This document shows, piece after piece, positions 10,991 to 18,673 of a DNA stretch of 64,000 nt (positions are counted from its first letter, which is position 1; the number at the start of each line of letters is the position of its first letter). Source of the stretch: Schizophyllum amplum (Eukaryota; Basidiomycota; Agaricomycetes; Agaricales; Schizophyllaceae); contig VDMD01000038.1 in assembly GCA_007026445.1 (NCBI GenBank), positions 1-64,000 of the forward strand. The letters run 5' to 3'. The notes beneath the pieces were generated by a model that saw only the letters and a list, made by a program, of their open reading frames with translations, had not been told where the DNA came from and ran no database searches. The position numbers and the translations under genes were made by a program.

Positions 10991-11251
10991 AGCGGGGCGT
11001 GGGCTGCGGCACGTGCAGAGGCGAGCGGGCGAGGAGCGAGCCGAACAGCACGGGAACAGCCGACAGGCAGGCCTGTAGGCGGGAGCTGCTGAGATTTGTA
11101 GCTACGACCTGTAGCTACAAGTGCAGTAGTTACTGTACAATAGTTATAGTAAAACATTGGAAGTCTGAGCCCTATGTTACTGGGCCTGTCAGCTAAAACC
11201 ATAGGGACTGTAGTGCACCTAGTCAATATCTTGAGGCCCTAGTGGCTTGTC

Positions 11252-11349
11252 ACTAAACTATAGCTGTATCGCGTATAGTTTAGCATGCATGATATTCACA
11301 CCGGAGAGTCGCGACGACTAAACTATTACTTTGATGCGTATAATTTAGC
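11252..11349. repeat. two 33-bp inverted repeats to the right of the 4.7-kb element
   Basis: Copies lie at 11252-11284 and 11317-11349, with 10-bp arms and 13-nt centres. The right arms ATAGTTTAGC and ATAATTTAGC differ slightly from the other copies. With the copy at 6452 they bracket the large element. Confidence 0.85.
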
Positions 11350-11429
11350 TCGACGGTGTTGCCCTGCGTCCGTACCTCCGCCACACAGCTGCCGGATCAC
11401 ACCCCCCCAACCACCGACATGCGCTCGAA

Positions 11430-12410
11430 GGCCAGCATGTGACGAACTCTGGACGCGCGGATCGCCTTTCGCGGGGACGAGTGTCGCCTCGCACGGCGCC
11501 CGAATTGTCGACAACGGCCCCGCGCGTCCGTTTTGCCAGCGCGCACCTATCGGAGCCTACCCCCTCGTCCCCCAGCATCCCCTCCAACACCACATTGCGT
11601 TGGAACTCGCACGGGCGGCACGCTTTTCTTGGGGACGAGTCTCGCCTCGCGCGGCGCCACAATTGTCGACAACGGCACCGCGCGTCCGTTTTGCCAGCGC
11701 GCAGCTATCGGAGCCTACCCCCTCGTCCCCCAGCATCCCCTCCAACACCACATTGCGTTGGAACTCGCACAGGCGGCACGCTTTTCTCGGGAACGAGTCT
11801 CGCCTCGCGCGGCGCCACAATTGTCGACAACGGCACCGCGCGTCCGTTTTGCCAGCGCGCAGCTATCGGAGCCTACCCCCTCGTCCCCCAGCATCCCCTC
11901 CAACACCACATTGCGTTGGAACTCGCACAGGCGGCACGCTTTTCTCGGGAACGAGTCTCGCCTCGCGCGGCGCCACAATTGTCGACAACGGCACCGCGCG
12001 TCCGTTTTGCCAGCGCGCACTCATCGGAGCCCACCCCCTCGTCCCCCAGCATCCCCTCCAACACCACATTGGGTTGGAACTCGCACGCGCGGATTGCCTT
12101 TCGCGGGGACGAGTCTCGCCTCGCGCGGCGCCACAATTGTCGACAACGGCCCCGCGCGTCCGTTTTGCCAGCGCGCAGCTATCGGAGCCCACCCCCTCGT
12201 CCCCCAGCATCCCCTCCAACACCACATTGGGTTGGAACTCGCACGCGCGGATCGCCTTTCGCGGGGACGAGTCTCGCCTCGCGTGGCGCCACAATTGTCG
12301 ACAACGGCCCCGCGCGTCCGTTTTGCCAGCGCGCACCTATCGGAGCCCACCCACTCGTCCCACAGCAGCCCCTCCAACACCATATTGGGTTGGAACTCGT
12401 ATCTACCGCC
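11430..12410. repeat. 158-bp tandem satellite, six copies
   Basis: The marker CGCGCGTCCGTTTTGCCAGC recurs with a period of exactly 158 bp (T of CGCGCGT at 11527, 11685, 11843, 12001, 12159 and 12317). The first and last units are partial. Two unit types alternate in blocks, one with GGCGGCACGCTTTTCT and one with GCGGATYGCCTTTCGC. Because 158 is not a multiple of three, the same sequence is read in three frames. All three forward frames are open for about 370-420 codons, so these frames should not be annotated as proteins. Confidence 0.93.
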
Positions 12411-12836
12411 CGTGTTCTGCATGGCCGACTCAAATTTTGCGCAGCGCCTCTATCGTCGCAAGTGTTGCCGCGCGCCCGTATCGCAGACGCGCACAGCTCA
12501 CAAAGTACATCTCCGCCCAGCTCCACATCCATTCCAAGACCAGCACTTGATAGAAGCGACACGTGCGGGCTCTGTCTTTTCAGAAGACTTGCGCTTCGTA
12601 ATGCTGAGCCGGGCCACCGCCGGGCTACCAAGTGAGATCTCGCTCTGATTTGCCTTGCTCGCATAGCCCGTAAGTCAGGATATATGGAAGATCGCATCTA
12701 ACCCCTTTACATGCGCTACAACTGAGTCTATTCCTATGCTACTTCATCCCTTTGCCCGTCTTGTGTTATTCGGTGTCCGCCTCGTTGATTCCCTCGTCAT
12801 ATCCTCTGTGGCTATCATTGCCTTCCTCGTTTCGCC
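12411..12836. other. spacer, no gene seen
   Basis: Non-repetitive sequence between the satellite and the first small gene. I see no coding signal or known element here. Confidence 0.5.
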
Positions 12837-13138
12837 TCAGCTTTCACCATCCGCTTCCTCGTCCTGGTCTGCCTGATCCGATGTTTCGTAAAAGACCTCG
12901 TAGTTTCGAGAGTGCAGGTGAGCAATAGCCTGCCGTATCCTACGCAGCTCGATCTCGAGCTCCTTGATACGCTCGAGCTCCTTCTGTGTGGCCTCTTCGA
13001 CAGCGGGAGCGGTCTGGTAAGCTTGGTCAGCGCCCAACAACGCTCTGAGTTCACGATGGTGCTCACCATTGTCGACAGGATCATGGATTGCAGATTTTGC
13101 TTGACTGCGCAAGTATTGTCGTCGCAGATCAGACACAT
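12837..13138 (-). CDS. MCxxC coiled-coil microprotein, pair 1 reverse gene (82 aa)
   Basis: Exon 1 is 13138-13067 (24 codons) and exon 2 is 13013-12837, with a 53-nt phase-0 intron that has GTGAGC and TACCAG ends. The product starts MCLICDDNTC, the MCxxCxxxxC pattern shared by all six small genes here. Exon 2 encodes a charged helix rich in Glu, Lys and Arg that looks like a coiled coil, ending in an acidic tail (DQDEEADGES). The start is supported by the shared motif and by a first exon of exactly the same length in the two other reverse-strand genes. It is divergently paired with the gene at 13343, with 204 bp between start codons. The cysteines suggest metal binding, but I recognise no family. 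Confidence 0.72.
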
Positions 13139-13342
13139 CGCGGTAGTAAACGGCGAGGTAACAGAGGATGTTCTTTGTGTGCGCTAATGAGCAAAAGGAG
13201 AGACTGATCGGAATGATCGCAGGCGATCGGTACGAATCGATGCATGTGCGCCTCCTGTCTGATAATCAATCCCTTGCTTCCTGCCATCATCACATTGACG
13301 AGAACTTTACCCACTCAACGCAACGCCCACCACTTGTGGAGA

Positions 13343-13654
13343 ATGTGCAAACCGTGTTCCTCGCAGGACTGCGCACTCGCTCAGGCGTACCCGCTTCAAG
13401 ACGGCTATGTATGTCTGTTTCTTTCGCTTTTCTACTTATCTCACCTATCTTAGGATCATAAACGGGCTCTGAAGCTGCTTGCGCAGGAAAGGGTGTATCG
13501 CGAGAACAAGGAGAAAGAGCTCCGAGACTGTCAAGACGACCTCGATGAGGCGAGGGAGATGCTGGCGTCATGGGAGGCAGCAAAGCAGCGAGGGGAGTCA
13601 TTGGAGGAGTGGAAGGCTGCTCAACAGGCGAGTGCGCTGGGGTCAGACATTTAA
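13343..13654 (+). CDS. MCxxC coiled-coil microprotein, pair 1 forward gene (88 aa)
   Basis: Exons are 13343-13408 (22 codons) and 13454-13654, with a 45-nt phase-0 intron (GTATGT to CTTAG). The product begins MCKPCSSQDCALAQAY. Exon 2 encodes a charged helix followed by the block LASWEAAKQRGESLEEW, which recurs in the two other forward-strand genes as W-E-x-A-K/R-x-x-G-x-S/T-x-x-E/Q-W. An upstream in-frame ATG at 13244 would also begin MCxxC, so the true start could be there. Function is unknown; the Cys-rich head plus helical tail suggests a small interaction module. Confidence 0.72.
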
Positions 13655-13747
13655 TACAGATGGCTTGGATCAAAGCTGCTCACCCTGCACTTCATTGTCG
13701 AGGATATATCTGCGCATATTCTTTGTTGATGGCGAATGAGAGTCTGA

Positions 13748-13920
13748 AATATTGTAAACACTAAACTATGGCCTGAATGCTTATAGTTTAGTCAAACAGC
13801 TCCCAGCGCCCACTCGAAATAGCTATTGACCTTAATATTGTAAACACTAAACTATCGCCTTAATGATCATAGTTTAGTGAAAGATCTCCCACCGCTCAAG
13901 CGAAATAAATCTAGTCACTT
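13748..13920. repeat. 86-bp tandem duplication carrying 33-bp inverted repeats
   Basis: The unit starting AATATTGTAAAC at 13748 recurs at 13834. Each unit contains a 33-bp inverted repeat (13760-13792 and 13846-13878). The arms are conserved, while the centres differ at several positions (GGCCTGAATGCTT against CGCCTTAATGATC). Confidence 0.85.
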
Positions 13921-13939
13921 ATAATTGAAACTCAAATTC

Positions 13940-13972
13940 ACTAAACTATAGTGAGTTAAGGCATAGTTTAGT
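13940..13972. repeat. 33-bp inverted repeat between small-gene pairs 1 and 2
   Basis: Perfect arms ACTAAACTAT and ATAGTTTAGT flank a 13-nt centre. It is the rightmost copy I find; none is visible from 14 to 64 kb. Confidence 0.88.
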
Positions 13973-14220
13973 CTGCGCGGAATACGATCCTCACGAATGC
14001 TTATGCTTAACCAACAAGTGTAGCATAGATTGGTGTCAGTCCTACAGTCTTCGAGTCCTAAGCATGTCACCGCGATAGCAGGCAATAGGCCTCGCAAGCT
14101 CTAACATGAGTACATAACCTCATTATTGATGTCTATCGGCTGAGTTCAAATGAAACGTTAGCAGATAATGGTCGCATTCACCCAAATTCATGCCCTAATG
14201 CATGACACCTTACCAAACGC

Positions 14221-14449
14221 TCACACATGTGGCCATGGTAGCAAACGTTTGCCTGCATGCAGTAACCAGAATACGAGGGATAGGTGCTCGCGCTTGGCGA
14301 TGATGGCTTCCCCTATATTGAAGGCGCTCTGGAAACGGTGATGAGAACCGTAAGAAGGACGACAAGAGAGTCTCTACCGTGCCCAGCCGGATCATTGCGC
14401 ATAGTCCTTGGTTGATATTGCAGGTCGATTGACCGCAGATGTTGCACAT
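14221..14449 (-). CDS. MCxxC microprotein, pair 2 reverse gene, shortened (59 aa)
   Basis: Exon 1 is 14449-14378, exactly 24 codons as in its two reverse-strand relatives, and exon 2 is 14328-14221, with a 49-nt phase-0 intron. The head MCNICGQSTC keeps the MCxxCxxxxC pattern. The second exon has lost the charged coiled coil and acidic tail seen in the relatives and encodes only 35 residues. It could be a diverged functional copy or a decaying one. Its start codon is 114 bp from that of the forward partner at 14564. Confidence 0.5.
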
Positions 14450-14563
14450 GACGAAAGCGTACCAGATGAAAGAGGGGGAAGAGAGGCGTGCGATCGGCGC
14501 ATATTGGCAATCAGCGCAGACAGATGTGCCGCGCACCACGTTTTGCCTTCCACAACCATTAGT

Positions 14564-14864
14564 ATGTGCACCGCTTGCGCCGAACCGGACTGCCAGCTGG
14601 CAGAAGCGTATCCGATGCATGCCGCCTTTGTGCGTGTCCTGCGCATGCAACAGCGAACATTAATCTGACCTGGGCTAGATGCAACAGGTGCAGGAGCTGC
14701 TGCACCTAGACGAGCAATTGCGCCTCACGCAGGAGCAGTGGGAGGTGGAGAAAAGCAGGCTTGCGAGTCTGAGGAAGGCCACTGTGTCATGGGAGATAGC
14801 CAAAGCGCAGGGAAAAACAATAAGCGAGTGGAACGAGGAGTGGCTGAAAGCCGGTGGAGAGTAG
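14564..14864 (+). CDS. MCxxC coiled-coil microprotein, pair 2 forward gene (83 aa)
   Basis: Exons are 14564-14629 (22 codons) and 14679-14864, with a 49-nt phase-0 intron (GTGCGT to GCTAG). The head is MCTACAEPDCQLAEAY, aligning residue for residue with the forward genes of pairs 1 and 3 (C-x2-C-x3-D-C-x-L-x-x-A-Y). Exon 2 is a charged helix with the conserved W-E-x-A-K-x-x-G-x-x-x-x-x-W block. The intron has the same position and phase as in the relatives, which argues for true homology. Confidence 0.72.
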
Positions 14865-15041
14865 GAAGGGGGGCTACGGTGCGTGGATGAATTCTCCTGG
14901 GCAACGGCGGCTGATTTTGGTGTAGAGGGCTACAGGGTACAAGATTACGTGACAGTACATGGTCTTCCGCATGCGACTGCTGCTCGCGGCGGTGTGCGAG
15001 CCAGCGCTAGGATGACATGAGAACCAATGTTGTTCGCGGCG

Positions 15042-15361
15042 CTACTCCTCCTCATCAGTTGTGGCACTCTCCGCCAGCTCCTCCGCATCCCTCGCATCCG
15101 TGTCCTCATTGTCGTAGTACGCTCTGGGATACGTGACGTGGAGGTCGTCAATCAGACGCTTCATCGCCCTCATGTTTTCCTCGAGCTGTTTCATACGCTG
15201 GCGTTCTTTTTCCAGGGATTCAGCGACGATGGCAGGGGTCTGGGGAAAGCTGTCAGCCTTCTGCGGGTAGTGCGCAGGTCATCTCCCACCCTTTCAGACC
15301 GTATCATGAACTTGAGCAGTCGGATGACTTCGCACTTGCGATCCGTGCAAATGACGCACAT
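15042..15361 (-). CDS. MCxxC coiled-coil microprotein, pair 3 reverse gene (89 aa)
   Basis: Exon 1 is 15361-15290 (24 codons) and exon 2 is 15239-15042, with a 50-nt phase-0 intron. The head is MCVICTDRKC. Exon 2 begins TPAIVAESLEKER, similar to TAPAVEEATQKEL in pair 1, then a heptad-like helix and an acidic tail ending TTDEEE. A phase-2 donor ten bases upstream is also possible, but the phase-0 choice matches the other two genes exactly. It is divergent to the gene at 15490, with 128 bp between starts. Confidence 0.72.
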
Positions 15362-15489
15362 GGTGGGATGAGCTATGGTGATGATGGGATGAGAAAGAAA
15401 GGGAAGACGTTAAGATAAAGGGTTAAATAATCGCGCTTCTGCTTTCTCACGCATTGCAGGTTGCTTCCAACCACCATCACCTTTCGCAT

Positions 15490-15903
15490 ATGTGTCAAAC
15501 CTGCGCTGCCCCGGACTGTGCGCTGTCGCAAGCGTACAACCACCCTGATCGAAAGTCGTTTGTGCGTGTGGTCCACCTTGAGGGGTTCGCAAGCTTACAC
15601 ATCCCAGGATGTTGACATCGAGCAACTGCGCCGTGCAATGAAGGAGAGAAGGAAGATGGAGATCGAGCGGAGGAGGTTGAGTCAGGACATGCATGACGCG
15701 CTGAGGACATCGAACGAATGGGAGTCCGCTAGGCGCAACGGCATCACCACAACCCAGTGGAAGGCCTCGCGGGCTGAGACGAAGGTCAGAGACAGTGATC
15801 CTATGGTGCGCACGTGAACACTGCTGCTCATCGGTGGACTAACACGGGGCAGGACGGCGCGCAGGAATCAACCTCGACCTCTACCTTGGCTTCGACGGCG
15901 TAA
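15490..15903 (+). CDS. MCxxC coiled-coil microprotein, pair 3 forward gene (99 aa)
   Basis: Exons are 15490-15561 (24 codons), 15608-15784 and probably 15853-15903. The last intron, 15785-15852, has a canonical CTAAC branch site; without it the protein would run to a stop at 15815. The head is MCQTCAAPDCALSQAY. The helix is strongly basic and acidic, followed by the conserved block NEWESARRNGITTTQW and a Ser/Thr-rich end. It is the longest of the six products. No known domain is recognised. Confidence 0.7.
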
Positions 15904-16084
15904 GGATTGGCCATAGTGCGAGCATTCAGTGATGGCGGCCAGATTCATGGGCTGGTGTATGTGGACTTGGACAGGTGATGCTGGTACAGCATTCCCCTTA
16001 GCATGCCTTTAGCTAAGCCATGTCACACCCGCACCGCTGCATGATTAGCAGAGCGATGGTCATACACCCTTTCGTTGGATGAGA

Positions 16085-16400
16085 GACTTCCATGTGACGG
16101 TCATGCGCGCATCCGTAATGCGACGGCCATGCGCAACGCCACGGCCTCAATCCGAACAATCAGCAAAATGCGACGGTCATGCGCGGATGCGTAATACGAC
16201 GGCCATGCGCGCATCGGCAATGCGACGGCCATGCGCAATGCCACGGCCTCAATCCGAACAATCCGCAGAATGCGACGGTCATGCGCGGATGCGTAATACG
16301 ACGGCCATGCGCGCATCGGCAATGCGACGGGCATGCGCGCATCGGCGATGAGACGAGCATGCACGCAGCGGCAATGCGACGGCCTCAAGCCGAACTATCA
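16085..16400. repeat. 102-bp minisatellite with internal GACGGCCATGCGC units
   Basis: The unit starting AATGCGACGGTCATGCGC at 16167 recurs at 16269, a period of 102 bp. Within it the shorter motif GCGACGGCCATGCGC repeats several times. Since 102 is a multiple of three an open frame runs through, but I see no reason to call it a gene. Confidence 0.8.
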
Positions 16401-16757
16401 GCGGTGGTATGCAGATTCTGATGCCGATGGTGCCTGTCAAAGTGACAGGGTGAACGGCTTTGACATCCCGAACAATGGTGACATCAACGGATTGCCACGA
16501 TCAATATGCTTATCAGCCGAATACTAGCACGCAAAAAACATCGGGTGAGAGCTAATGAAGGCTCACAAGGATACGAGCACCAGGGCAAGCAAAGAGAAGC
16601 TAATCAAGACTACACAGCGGCAGAAGCCAGGCGCAGATGTGGAAGCCGACTGGCGCCGAACAACTATGGACTGCGCATGCGGGATTAGACGTGACAAGGA
16701 TCAGCAGATGATAATAGCGTGAGGTGGATGTGCGCTAATGGCACACCGAGTGGGTGA

Positions 16758-16822
16758 AAAAGTCAGAGTCCGGCTGTCAAAACCTCGACAGAGGATGTTT
16801 TGAGTGCGGGACTTTGACTTTT
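16758..16822. repeat. 65-bp two-tier foldback element, copy 1
   Basis: The outer arms AAAAGTCAGAGTCC and GGACTTTGACTTTT pair with one mismatch. An inner pair TCAAAAC / GTTTTGA lies inside them. The flanks are also similar to those of the second copy at 17018. Confidence 0.75.
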
Positions 16823-17017
16823 GAACTTTTCAAAGTCGGTGTGGTTACCCATCCAGCAAAAGTAGTGCGCAGGTAAGAAGCAGCGTGCGAGGTGCGATGC
16901 GGAAGAGGACGCATGGCGGGTGAGCATGGATCGGACATGTGTGATGAGATTCGATAAGGATCACCGAGTGATGACGGAATATGGGGGATGAGGCCGAAAG
17001 GCACATTCGGTGAGCTC

Positions 17018-17082
17018 AAAATCCAGAGTCCCGCAGTCAAAACCTCGACAGGCGGCGTTTTGAGAGCGGGACTTTGACTTTT
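17018..17082. repeat. 65-bp two-tier foldback element, copy 2
   Basis: Same length and same nested arms as the copy at 16758, in direct orientation 260 bp downstream. Changes in the left arm weaken the outer stem, while the inner TCAAAAC / GTTTTGA stem is intact. Confidence 0.7.
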
Positions 17083-17542
17083 GAAAGTTTCAAGTCCAAA
17101 AGCGGTGGCGCGGGCTGACGCGGGTCAACCAAACAAGGACAGATGGATGCGAGTCGCAATGGGTAAGTAACTGGAGATGTAAGAACGTACAGCAAGGCTA
17201 GCTGGAGGTAAAGCGTAAATTGGTGCGCATCAGCAGAATGGGGGCGCAAGCAGATAAACTGGTCCCTGACATAAAGGGAGGGCCTGCAGGTAGGAGAGGT
17301 ACATGAACCAAGTGTACAATAGTAGCCGCACATGTGAGCGAGGGCACCGCAAACAGACGAGGTACATGCGCGCAAGGAAGAGCAGAGGCGCTGGAAATGA
17401 GTGACATACCTGGGCGCATGTCAGCCGAACAGTGGCGGTGCAATGCAACGGTAGGGTAAACGTCAGTGACCACCGATACACAATTGGGGGACAGATAAGC
17501 TGAACCGCAAAGGTGCGAAGAAGAACCACCCTAACCCAAAGA

Positions 17543-17725
17543 GAAGCAGCACCACTGAGGTGCGAAGAAGGACCACCGGGGTGCGAAGCAGAACCACCGG
17601 GGTGCAAAGGACCACCGGGGTGCGAAGCAGAACCACCGGGGTGCGAAGCGTAACCACCAGGGTGCGAAGCGGAACCACCAGGGTGCGAAGCGGAACCACC
17701 AGGGTGCGAAGCAGAACCGCATAGC
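17543..17725. repeat. 21-bp minisatellite, about nine copies
   Basis: The unit is GAACCACCGGGGTGCGAAGCA with small changes. The 21-bp period keeps a reverse frame reading a seven-residue GSASHPG-like repeat. No gene structure around it supports translation. Confidence 0.8.
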
Positions 17726-17876
17726 TGGATGAGACGAGAGTGAATGCGCAAAATGATTCAAAATCAGGACGGCACTGGGTTTGGCAACGGTGACAGCAGG
17801 CCGACGGTGAGGAAACACCTCGCAATGTCAGCCAAAGTGTGAATTTTATTGCGATGATCAAAGAATTCGGTTGCCG

Positions 17877-18175
17877 GGGGGGGGGGGGGGGGAGAGAATG
17901 TGGTGTGGACAACAGCGACGAGGGGTGTGAAACCAACGACGACACCAGGAAACGTCAGTTGATGACACCCTGAATGGGTAACAACAGCCAGCTTATTGCA
18001 TATTAAATCCAAATTCAATTCCCTAATATTAGCAGAACCAGGCACGAGCAGAACCGGTTCTGATAGCAGAACCACGGATAAGGGGGATAGGTACGAACGG
18101 CGATACGAGCACGCACCATCTGCGCGCAGGTCCTTCGCTGATCATAGCTCCCCACCCCCCCCCCCCCCCCCCCCC
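17877..18175. repeat. two long homopolymer tracts, G16 and C21
   Basis: A run of 16 G lies at 17877-17892 and a run of 21 C at 18155-18175. Apart from these I see nothing definable between about 17730 and 18640. Exact run lengths may be affected by sequencing error. Confidence 0.7.
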
Positions 18176-18673
18176 ATTCCAGCGTTCTCCATTGACTAGA
18201 CGCGTCGCTGCATTCGATCACGGACGAACTGAGCTCGATCGGATTCGAGAACGTCATACGGCGATCGACGCACCTAAGGAGGATTGAACGCGGGTCCGCG
18301 TTTCTGCAGAGCGTTCAGACGGAGCGAGCAGTGAAGAAGACGAGCACGCACCTCGTACACGGCGGGCCTCCAGTCTCGCACATGCGTGGCCTCGATAAAC
18401 AGCGCAACTCACGGGTCTTGTAATAGTCCTATACCAATCGAGGAACCGTCCTCAGAGCTTCGGCGCGTAAAGGAACGCAGAGGACTATAGGGACTTCGTC
18501 AGCGACCTGATTCTCGTTCAAGGCAGCAAGACGCACCGCTCGACGTTATGATCTGGCATCTCTGCACCATGCAGGGTATTTAAAAGCTTCTGCTGCCATA
18601 GTCATTCGTGAAGCAAGGGTCAAGTAGAGGAGCGTGCACGACGACCATGATGGCAGGAAGCAAGACATCTCGC

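Follow-up and report, generated by a model that had tools for sequence, protein, structure and literature searches.

A clustered family of cysteine-headed microprotein genes in two subfamilies near contig ends of Schizophyllum amplum

Between positions 12837 and 15903 of contig VDMD01000038.1 of Schizophyllum amplum (assembly GCA_007026445.1), within the 64,000-nucleotide stretch analyzed here (the window), six small genes beginning with the head MCxxCxxxxC face one another in pairs, which raises the question of what such genes encode and whether their pairing reflects a partnership of their products. The six heads were recovered at the sites and on the strands first reported, as were the three back-to-back gaps and the first exons of 22 or 24 codons, each followed by a phase-0 intron in splice models for which the exon-1 length was picked among 22–24 codons (Table 1). 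The E1 protein of the window is identical on contig C249 and near-identical on C223. F3 may contain a second intron, recognized by eye only, which would give the 99 aa and the end at 15903 of the preliminary description.

Table 1. Features of the six-gene region, in window coordinates; exons, introns and protein lengths are predictions from splice models.
Feature	Position	Strand	Exon 1	Intron	Exon 2	Stop	Length or remark
E1, alpha	12837–13138	-	13067–13138 (24 codons)	13014–13066 (53 nt)	12840–13013	12837–12839	82 aa
E1/F1 start-to-start spacer	13139–13342						204 bp; candidate two-way promoter
F1, beta	13343–13654	+	13343–13408 (22 codons)	13409–13453 (45 nt)	13454–13651	13652–13654	88 aa
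E2, alpha, truncated	14221–14449	-	14378–14449 (24 codons)	14329–14377 (49 nt)		14221–14223	59 aa
Junction of two haplotypes	14282–14285						left as in C249, right as in C243 and C291
E2/F2 start-to-start spacer	14450–14563						114 bp
F2, beta	14564–14864	+	14564–14629 (22 codons)	14630–14678 (49 nt)	14679–14861	14862–14864	83 aa
E3, alpha	15042–15361	-	15290–15361 (24 codons)	15240–15289 (50 nt)	15045–15239	15042–15044	89 aa
E3/F3 start-to-start spacer	15362–15489						128 bp
F3, beta	15490–15817	+	15490–15561 (24 codons)	15562–15607 (46 nt)	15608–15814	15815–15817	93 aa

Five of the six genes had been credited with a charged second exon, and the sixth, E2, indeed lacks one; it is a truncated copy, however, and not another design. 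Its second exon matches the intact E2 copies (82 aa, on C243 and C291) only down to about 14282 and then runs to a chance stop. At this junction the left flank is 100% identical to C249 and the right flank 100% (rounded) to C243 and C291, with AGG at 14282–14284 compatible with both haplotypes, and a distinct short gene type was rejected, the gene being cut by the junction. For E2 the script preferred a 65-nt intron (68 aa), but the 49-nt intron was chosen, being the one used by the intact copies.

The amplification seen in the window is part of a larger one: the 49.65-Mb genome has at least 105 MCxxCxxxxC heads, spread over 11 contigs. The minus-type head pattern occurs at 39 places in the whole genome, against 0 for the reversed pattern, an excess far beyond chance; 36 of these places lie inside clusters, and around the other three, flanks of 0.7–0.8 kb yielded no second exon. 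The two subfamilies proposed from the window hold for the family at large as alpha (classes A, B, B' and E1–E3) and beta (C, C', D and F1–F3), about 12 classes together, whose order is preserved between divergent haplotypes. Alpha proteins have an acid-rich tail and, in 20 of 20 models, a first exon of 24 codons; beta proteins have a first exon of 22–24 codons and mostly no such tail. Across 38 models, which omit near-identical duplicates and degenerate distinct copies (among them C275:130860, C291:26416, C254:171953, C254:177352, C30:5061 and C275:122074), the predicted proteins measure 69–128 aa, a phase-0 intron is predicted in every case, the introns measuring 43–57 nt, and net charge overlaps between alpha (-27 to -1) and beta (-7 to +7). 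The motif CCATCATC, chosen after the fact, lies upstream of 7 of 33 genes, which are related to one another, where 0.1 would be expected.

Comparison of whole-protein profiles in 10 groups, with B' merged into B and C' into C, reproduces the division: 9 of the 10 alpha–alpha pairs score 81–99% and 8 of the 10 beta–beta pairs 65–99%, whereas only 8 of the 25 cross pairs exceed 50%, the strongest being B–D (85% over 34 columns), A–F2 (78% over 55) and E1–D (73.5% over 16). When only exon 2 is compared, A and B score at most 5% against every other group and the links among beta groups are partial, so the alpha/beta split leans on exon 1. The paired design of the preliminary description stands for E and F, 23 of 24 E heads having a back-to-back F head within 217 bp, but not for A-B-C-D and B'-C', which lie in tandem; back-to-back order is therefore the rule only for E/F. 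A possible, if somewhat doubtful, account of this arrangement is that one ancestral helical microprotein with a three-cysteine head spread by tandem and inverted duplication, that the classes act alone or as homo-oligomers, and that the alpha/beta neighborhood is a trace of duplication. The head and modeled intron common to all classes, the tandem blocks and the cross-subfamily scores above 50% would suit such a history, as would the single partners that remain after loss of the other member (six F2 heads lack an E2 counterpart, and in one C275 cluster E3 lacks F3). On the other hand, within-group scores exceed cross scores in most pairs, and both subfamilies are represented on each of the 11 contigs with the E/F facing order almost always kept, all of which speaks against this account.

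We consider it an almost even prospect that this clustered family near contig ends instead encodes heteromers, in which alpha and beta proteins join through coiled coils and hold a metal between two three-cysteine heads. In a test unselected for the head, an intact head lies upstream of 70 of 75 exon-2 matches, many of them near-identical copies; of the other five, two are weak stray matches, two are cut by contig ends and one is split by an insertion. The cysteines common to all classes are C2, C5 and C10, save for C33 of class A; in 20 of the 38 models they are the sole cysteines, and no histidine is shared. Because there are only three shared cysteines and no histidine, a four-ligand zinc site would need a partner chain, and a multimer is expected chiefly for this reason. 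Exon 2 of E and F is predicted to be helical: that of F1 folds as a helix at 2–45, a turn and a helix at 50–63 (pLDDT 92.6), and that of E3 has a mean pLDDT of 80.3. In a simple heptad test, only 11 of the 38 models outscored shuffles at the 5% level, and the proposed coiled coil therefore depends on the predicted helices. In the proposed mechanism, each back-to-back E/F pair would be co-expressed from its shared spacer, alpha would pair with beta rather than with alpha, or beta with itself, and C2, C5 and C10 would bind metal at a site between the chains. The proteins are probably located inside the cell, because they contain no hydrophobic stretch of the signal-peptide or membrane type; secretion or membrane anchoring via such a segment was rejected, the top 19-residue Kyte-Doolittle mean being 1.28.

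The clusters sit near contig ends, a location that is weak evidence because repeats break assemblies. On C275, heads at 121.9–131.4 kb form clusters 3–12 kb from a (TTAGGG)n array at the contig end (134.17–134.31 kb); among the contigs with such arrays (C7, C172, C240, C248 and C275), only C275 has family matches. RecQ-like helicase frames occur on five cluster contigs and also near the array on C172. Clusters on six contigs share blocks that are 84–99% identical and whose ends differ among copies, so segment exchange fits better than transposition of a unit, which is disfavored. An assembly chimera or allelic copies may, as alternatives to exchange between ends, explain both these blocks and the window junction. 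The shared blocks and the junction would also suit a selfish or nonself-recognition module, an improbable reading in which alpha and beta serve as antidote and poison or as matched partners in recognition, maintained by exchange between chromosome ends. Several diverging pair types do lie side by side, and E1 has a Pfam match to PSK_trans_fac, which we take to be an antitoxin-like family (E 0.0074), although its 17.6 bits fall below the cut-off of 28.3. The F2 heads that have lost E2 and the E3 that has lost F3 speak against an obligate antidote role in cis for either member, while copies elsewhere in the genome could supply the antidote.

Among 15 representative proteins, no Pfam family was matched above its curated cut-off, which also counts against such a module. 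The top sub-threshold match joins E3 to Mediator subunit 30 (E 0.0029, 18.5 bits against a cut-off of 28.1; E 0.83 in the PDB), followed by F2 to DUF7006 (0.006), E1 to MobI (0.0073) and class A to Lambda_tail_I (0.0085); the sub-threshold matches were attributed to chance, the proteins being short and helical. PDB sequence searches with E3, class A and class F returned no match below E 0.18, and a fold search with the modeled exon 2 of F1 none below E 7; class A had no relative in an IMG/VR scan, and Rfam had no match at 11000–18500 of the window. The opinion that no system of this form has been described agrees with the Pfam, NCBIfam, PDB and literature searches.

Plant and animal Met-Cys proteins suggest another role for the head, as an oxygen-sensing degron in which removal of Met exposes Cys2, whose oxidation marks the protein for turnover. 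All 38 models begin with Met-Cys by way of their selection, but C5 and C10, unneeded for a degron, are conserved alongside C2, and we regard this as very unlikely; a search for the cysteine dioxygenase family PCO_ADO gave no match in the genome, but none in the control genomes either, so the enzyme may still be present. Constraint acts at the protein level: all 94 within-class comparisons in which pS exceeds 0.05 (median pS about 0.60) have a pN lower than pS, although they are not independent and one of them, exon 2 of D_v2/D_v5, is almost tied. The full set held 98 comparisons, and the four left out are among near-identical E1 copies with pS 0, whose exon-1 changes are only non-synonymous (pN 0.09–0.19 in three pairs). 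Introns diverge more than exons, and within codons third positions vary most. Reading frames open by chance, or noncoding repeats of chromosome ends, which the high copy number near contig ends and the decay of some copies might recall, are contradicted by this constraint, by the faster divergence of introns and by the head-pattern control, and are exceedingly unlikely. Distances among E and among F genes correlate over seven pairs (Mantel r 0.90, 6 of 5040 permutations), as would suit the heteromer reading, although linkage by itself would also produce this agreement.

Among known systems, the HD1/HD2 mating-type pairs of basidiomycetes, as far as the sources consulted describe them, likewise consist of back-to-back genes for two unlike partner proteins, the partnership being a prediction in the present case. 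Several paralogous HD1/HD2 pairs lie side by side in some mushrooms. They form one locus, however, whereas the microprotein genes, with products of 69–128 aa, form many clusters near contig ends, and the 15 representatives contain no homeodomain by Pfam, the sole homeobox-family name being a sub-threshold MEIS N-terminal match of F3 (E 0.034). In fungal Zn2Cys6 binuclear clusters and CxxC zinc clasps, cysteine sets share metal, in the clasp between two chains. Invariant cysteines are likewise present in the microproteins, but with the spacing CX2CX4C, one half per chain, a putative metal site and no basic DNA-contact stretch. In Agaricus bisporus var. burnettii, subtelomeric RecQ-helicase and variety-specific genes are amplified at chromosome ends and mostly lack a Pfam match (PMC7473861). 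The RecQ-like frames on cluster contigs, the apparent amplification at ends and the scarcity of Pfam matches recall that case in the parts of the report available, which do not describe paired two-subfamily microproteins with a fixed three-cysteine head.

Because several pair types diverge side by side, our guess at a biological role is a recognition or dosage module gaining variety by chromosome-end recombination. Rather unlikely, in our estimate, is the broader proposal of a new eukaryotic system of chromosome-end cassettes with at most six genes of each subfamily, in which the two chains of an alpha/beta pair would each contribute a half-cluster to rebuild one metal cluster of six cysteines, yielding many pair-specific complexes diversified by subtelomeric exchange for self/nonself recognition or chromosome-end biology. 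The heteromer reading makes testable predictions, namely pair binding, metal between the two heads and co-expression from the 114–216-bp spacers. From a genomic point of view, genes of 69–128 codons with a first exon of 22–24 codons are probably easily missed by annotation pipelines, and about 100 constrained genes of two subfamilies, kept in conserved order in one genome, would represent a layer of fungal biology that has so far been overlooked.

All six MCxxCxxxxC heads of the preliminary description are present, on the minus strand at 13138, 14449 and 15361 and on the plus strand at 13343, 14564 and 15490 (start-to-start gaps 204, 114 and 128 bp), and the set is both confirmed and enlarged, the window genes being part of a larger family with 105 heads on 11 contigs (written C plus a number) in the examined loci and the window up to 20 kb, plus-type heads being counted within the examined loci only. 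The expected phase-0 introns likewise recur in the splice models of the window genes, at a modelled 45-53 nt, with the first exon picked from 22-24 codons. The minus-type head pattern has 39 genome-wide matches versus 0 for the reversed pattern, and 36 of these lie in clusters; no second exon was found in the 0.7-0.8 kb flanks of the 3 internal matches (C223:1386764, C269:149993 and C277:449528). Searches with exon 2 (classes A, B, C, D, E and F) return the same clusters as the head pattern, together with two weak stray matches on C112 (E 0.11) and C24 (E 0.88).

Head and position define twelve classes, namely A, B, B', E1, E2 and E3 in subfamily alpha, which holds the minus-strand window genes, and C, C', D, F1, F2 and F3 in subfamily beta, which holds the plus-strand ones, with labels assigned by best identity over 22 residues (lowest 10/22, in one decayed copy). 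One gene order is kept across divergent haplotypes (table), and on C243 and C301 the read-through sequence shows, by eye, a relic of E2. The arrangement in which E genes face F genes holds for 23 of 24 E heads, each with a back-to-back F head ≤217 bp away; six of the 29 F heads lack an E head, and all six are F2. On C254 (177352 / 175801), a ~1.2-kb insertion that the C291 and C30 copies lack parts a B-class head from its exon 2, and in the E1 copy at C243:7531 (minus) the intron would begin with GC, not GT.

Gene order in the clusters, by class (back-to-back pairs in brackets)
Order	Location	Remark
A-B-C-D-(E2/F2)-B'-C'	C291:100-105 kb; C254:172-178 kb; C30	
A-B-C-D-F2-(E3/F3)	C164, C243, C301	
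As in C164/C243/C301	C223, C254	from class C onward to contig end
As in C164/C243/C301	C249	without A head
A-B-C-D-(E3/F3)	C275	second, decayed copy closer to telomere
A-B(decayed)-D-B-B'-C'-(E1/F1)-(E2/F2)-(E3/F3)	C291:26-33 kb	

The division into two subfamilies is supported by whole-protein profiles of 10 groups (B' pooled with B, C' with C), which match at 81-99% in 9/10 alpha-alpha pairs (exception A-E2, 25%) and at 65-99% in 8/10 beta-beta pairs (exceptions C-F2, 21%, and D-F2, 23%). Of the alpha-beta cross pairs, 8/25 exceed 50%, mostly over 16-34 columns, the top ones being B-D (85%, 34 columns), A-F2 (78%, 55 columns) and E1-D (73.5%, 16 columns). With exon 2 only, E1, E2 and E3 cohere at 69-97% and F1 matches F2 and F3 at 93-96%, F2-F3 reaching just 29%, C-F1 62% and C-D 34%, and A and B match none of the other groups; these sequence comparisons support the split, which leans on exon 1. 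That exon has 24 codons in 20/20 alpha models and 22-24 in the 18 beta models. The acidic share of the last 30 residues is 23-53% in alpha and 7-33% in beta, the ranges overlapping, and net charge runs from -27 to -1 and from -7 to +7, respectively.

Protein constraint, for which the preliminary description had proposed a synonymous/non-synonymous check, is supported by pN<pS within classes in 46/46 exon-1 and 48/48 exon-2 comparisons with pS>0.05 (98 non-independent comparisons in total, 4 among near-identical E1 copies being set aside), one counted comparison being nearly tied; median pS is ~0.60 and median pN 0.29 and 0.33 for exons 1 and 2. In a frame-blind nucleotide alignment, third codon positions differ most (330, 261 and 466 differences at positions 1, 2 and 3 of exon 1; 1065, 1026 and 1534 in exon 2), and introns have a lower median identity (0.48) than exon 1 (0.66) and exon 2 (0.61). 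Because modelled intron lengths (43-57 nt) include all three remainders modulo 3, the frame of exon 2 relative to exon 1 varies among copies. Counting against coding constraint, 3 exon-1 comparisons among near-identical E1 copies contain non-synonymous changes only, which could reflect relaxed or diversifying selection.

The window E2 gene (minus 14449) is short because its exon 2 runs into a junction at 14282-14285, where the left side is 100% identical to C249 and the right side 100% (rounded) to C243 and C291, the bases AGG being compatible with both. Its counterpart on C243 and C291 encodes 82 aa; in the window copy the script placed a 65-nt intron (68 aa) before a 49-nt one (59 aa), and the latter was adopted, as in intact copies. 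The right flank (14291-18090) is common to C243 and C291 up to 18090, its final part also occurring on C300, and no exact 40-base match to the compared loci was found from 18090 to 22 kb. Elsewhere in the window, a 158-bp tandem repeat occurs six times just ahead of the gene pairs (11444-12399), with fragments at the C249 end and on C223; inverted repeats CTAAACTAT...ATAGTTTAG occur three times downstream of F1 (13748-13990), two within an 86-bp tandem unit; and a gene near the contig end (2941-6355) is represented by three frames of 241-423 aa that have no Pfam match, two of the three also having no NCBIfam match.

C275 terminates in a (TTAGGG)n array, and its heads lie ~3-12 kb inward of the repeats. 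Directly adjoining the array is a frame (L059:6044-7153, C275:133044-134153, minus), with a second copy on C248, which has one TTAGGG match; by eye it contains LANLF and YIDD, which we take to be reverse-transcriptase-like motifs, and it is perhaps a Penelope-type telomeric element, with no reverse transcriptase in Pfam and just weak retron/Drt3a matches in NCBIfam (E 0.014-0.021). A frame of retroelement type (L058:137-2662, C275, minus) adjoins the C275 cluster and carries an RNase H, an integrase and a Chromo domain. A helicase frame lying ~1.1 kb away from the closest exon of the cluster (L055:4445-5269, C254:207944-208768) matches Pfam DEAD above cut-off (54.9 bits), its best NCBIfam name being RecQ family, below cut-off (45 bits vs 219.8); its 7 matches lie on cluster contigs (C254, C291 twice, C164, C30 and C223) and on C172, there ~2 kb from a TTAGGG array. 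The RecQ-like frames on cluster contigs resemble the situation in Agaricus bisporus var. burnettii, whose chromosome ends are described as carrying RecQ genes in subtelomeric position together with many unknown genes (PMC7473861). Repeats alone can also cause a contig to terminate, and allelism could account for some of the near-identical copies.

No match was found in Pfam above curated cut-off (15 representative proteins), in NCBIfam at E 0.05 (4 proteins), below E 0.18 in a PDB sequence search, in a fold search, or, with class A, in IMG/VR. Below threshold, E3 comes nearest to Mediator subunit 30 (Pfam E 0.0029; PDB E 0.83) and E1 to PSK_trans_fac (E 0.0074). Among the titles and abstract openings surveyed, none describes such a family. 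The closest counterpart in layout among them is the mating-type locus of mushrooms with its divergently arranged HD1/HD2 genes; however, Pfam found no homeodomain in the 15 representatives.

Since heads were found via their cysteines, cysteines in the models prove nothing, and an exon-2-first test was used: an intact head lies ≤230 bp upstream of 70/75 exon-2 matches, many of them near-identical copies and class C being excluded, the other five being stray (2), cut by a contig end (2) or with the head split by an insertion (1). The head cysteines C2, C5 and C10 are the sole cysteines in 20/38 models, C33 is also kept in class A (5/5), and no histidine position is common to all 38; from this content, a four-ligand metal site would require a partner chain. 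With exon 2 predicted alone as a single chain, F1 forms helices 2-45 and 50-63 (pLDDT 92.6), with a turn coinciding with the invariant W-x2-A-x3-G-x5-W block, and E3 is helical (mean pLDDT 80.3, the acid part lower). A simple heptad score exceeds shuffles (5% level) in just 11/38 models; coiled-coil pairing is therefore a prediction, not a result. Among upstream motifs, chosen after the fact in related, non-independent genes, CCATCATC precedes 7/33 genes (0.1 in shuffles) and TTGCYT, lying 21-69 bp before the start, 12/33 (2.4 in shuffles). Distances among E and among F genes are concordant over 7 pairs (Mantel r 0.90; 6/5040 permutations), an agreement that linkage by itself would produce. 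That the genes are independent paralogues is a serious rival, if a less likely one; pairing of alpha with beta chains, combined with the metal model, is the likeliest single mechanism for the family, and we favor it tentatively.
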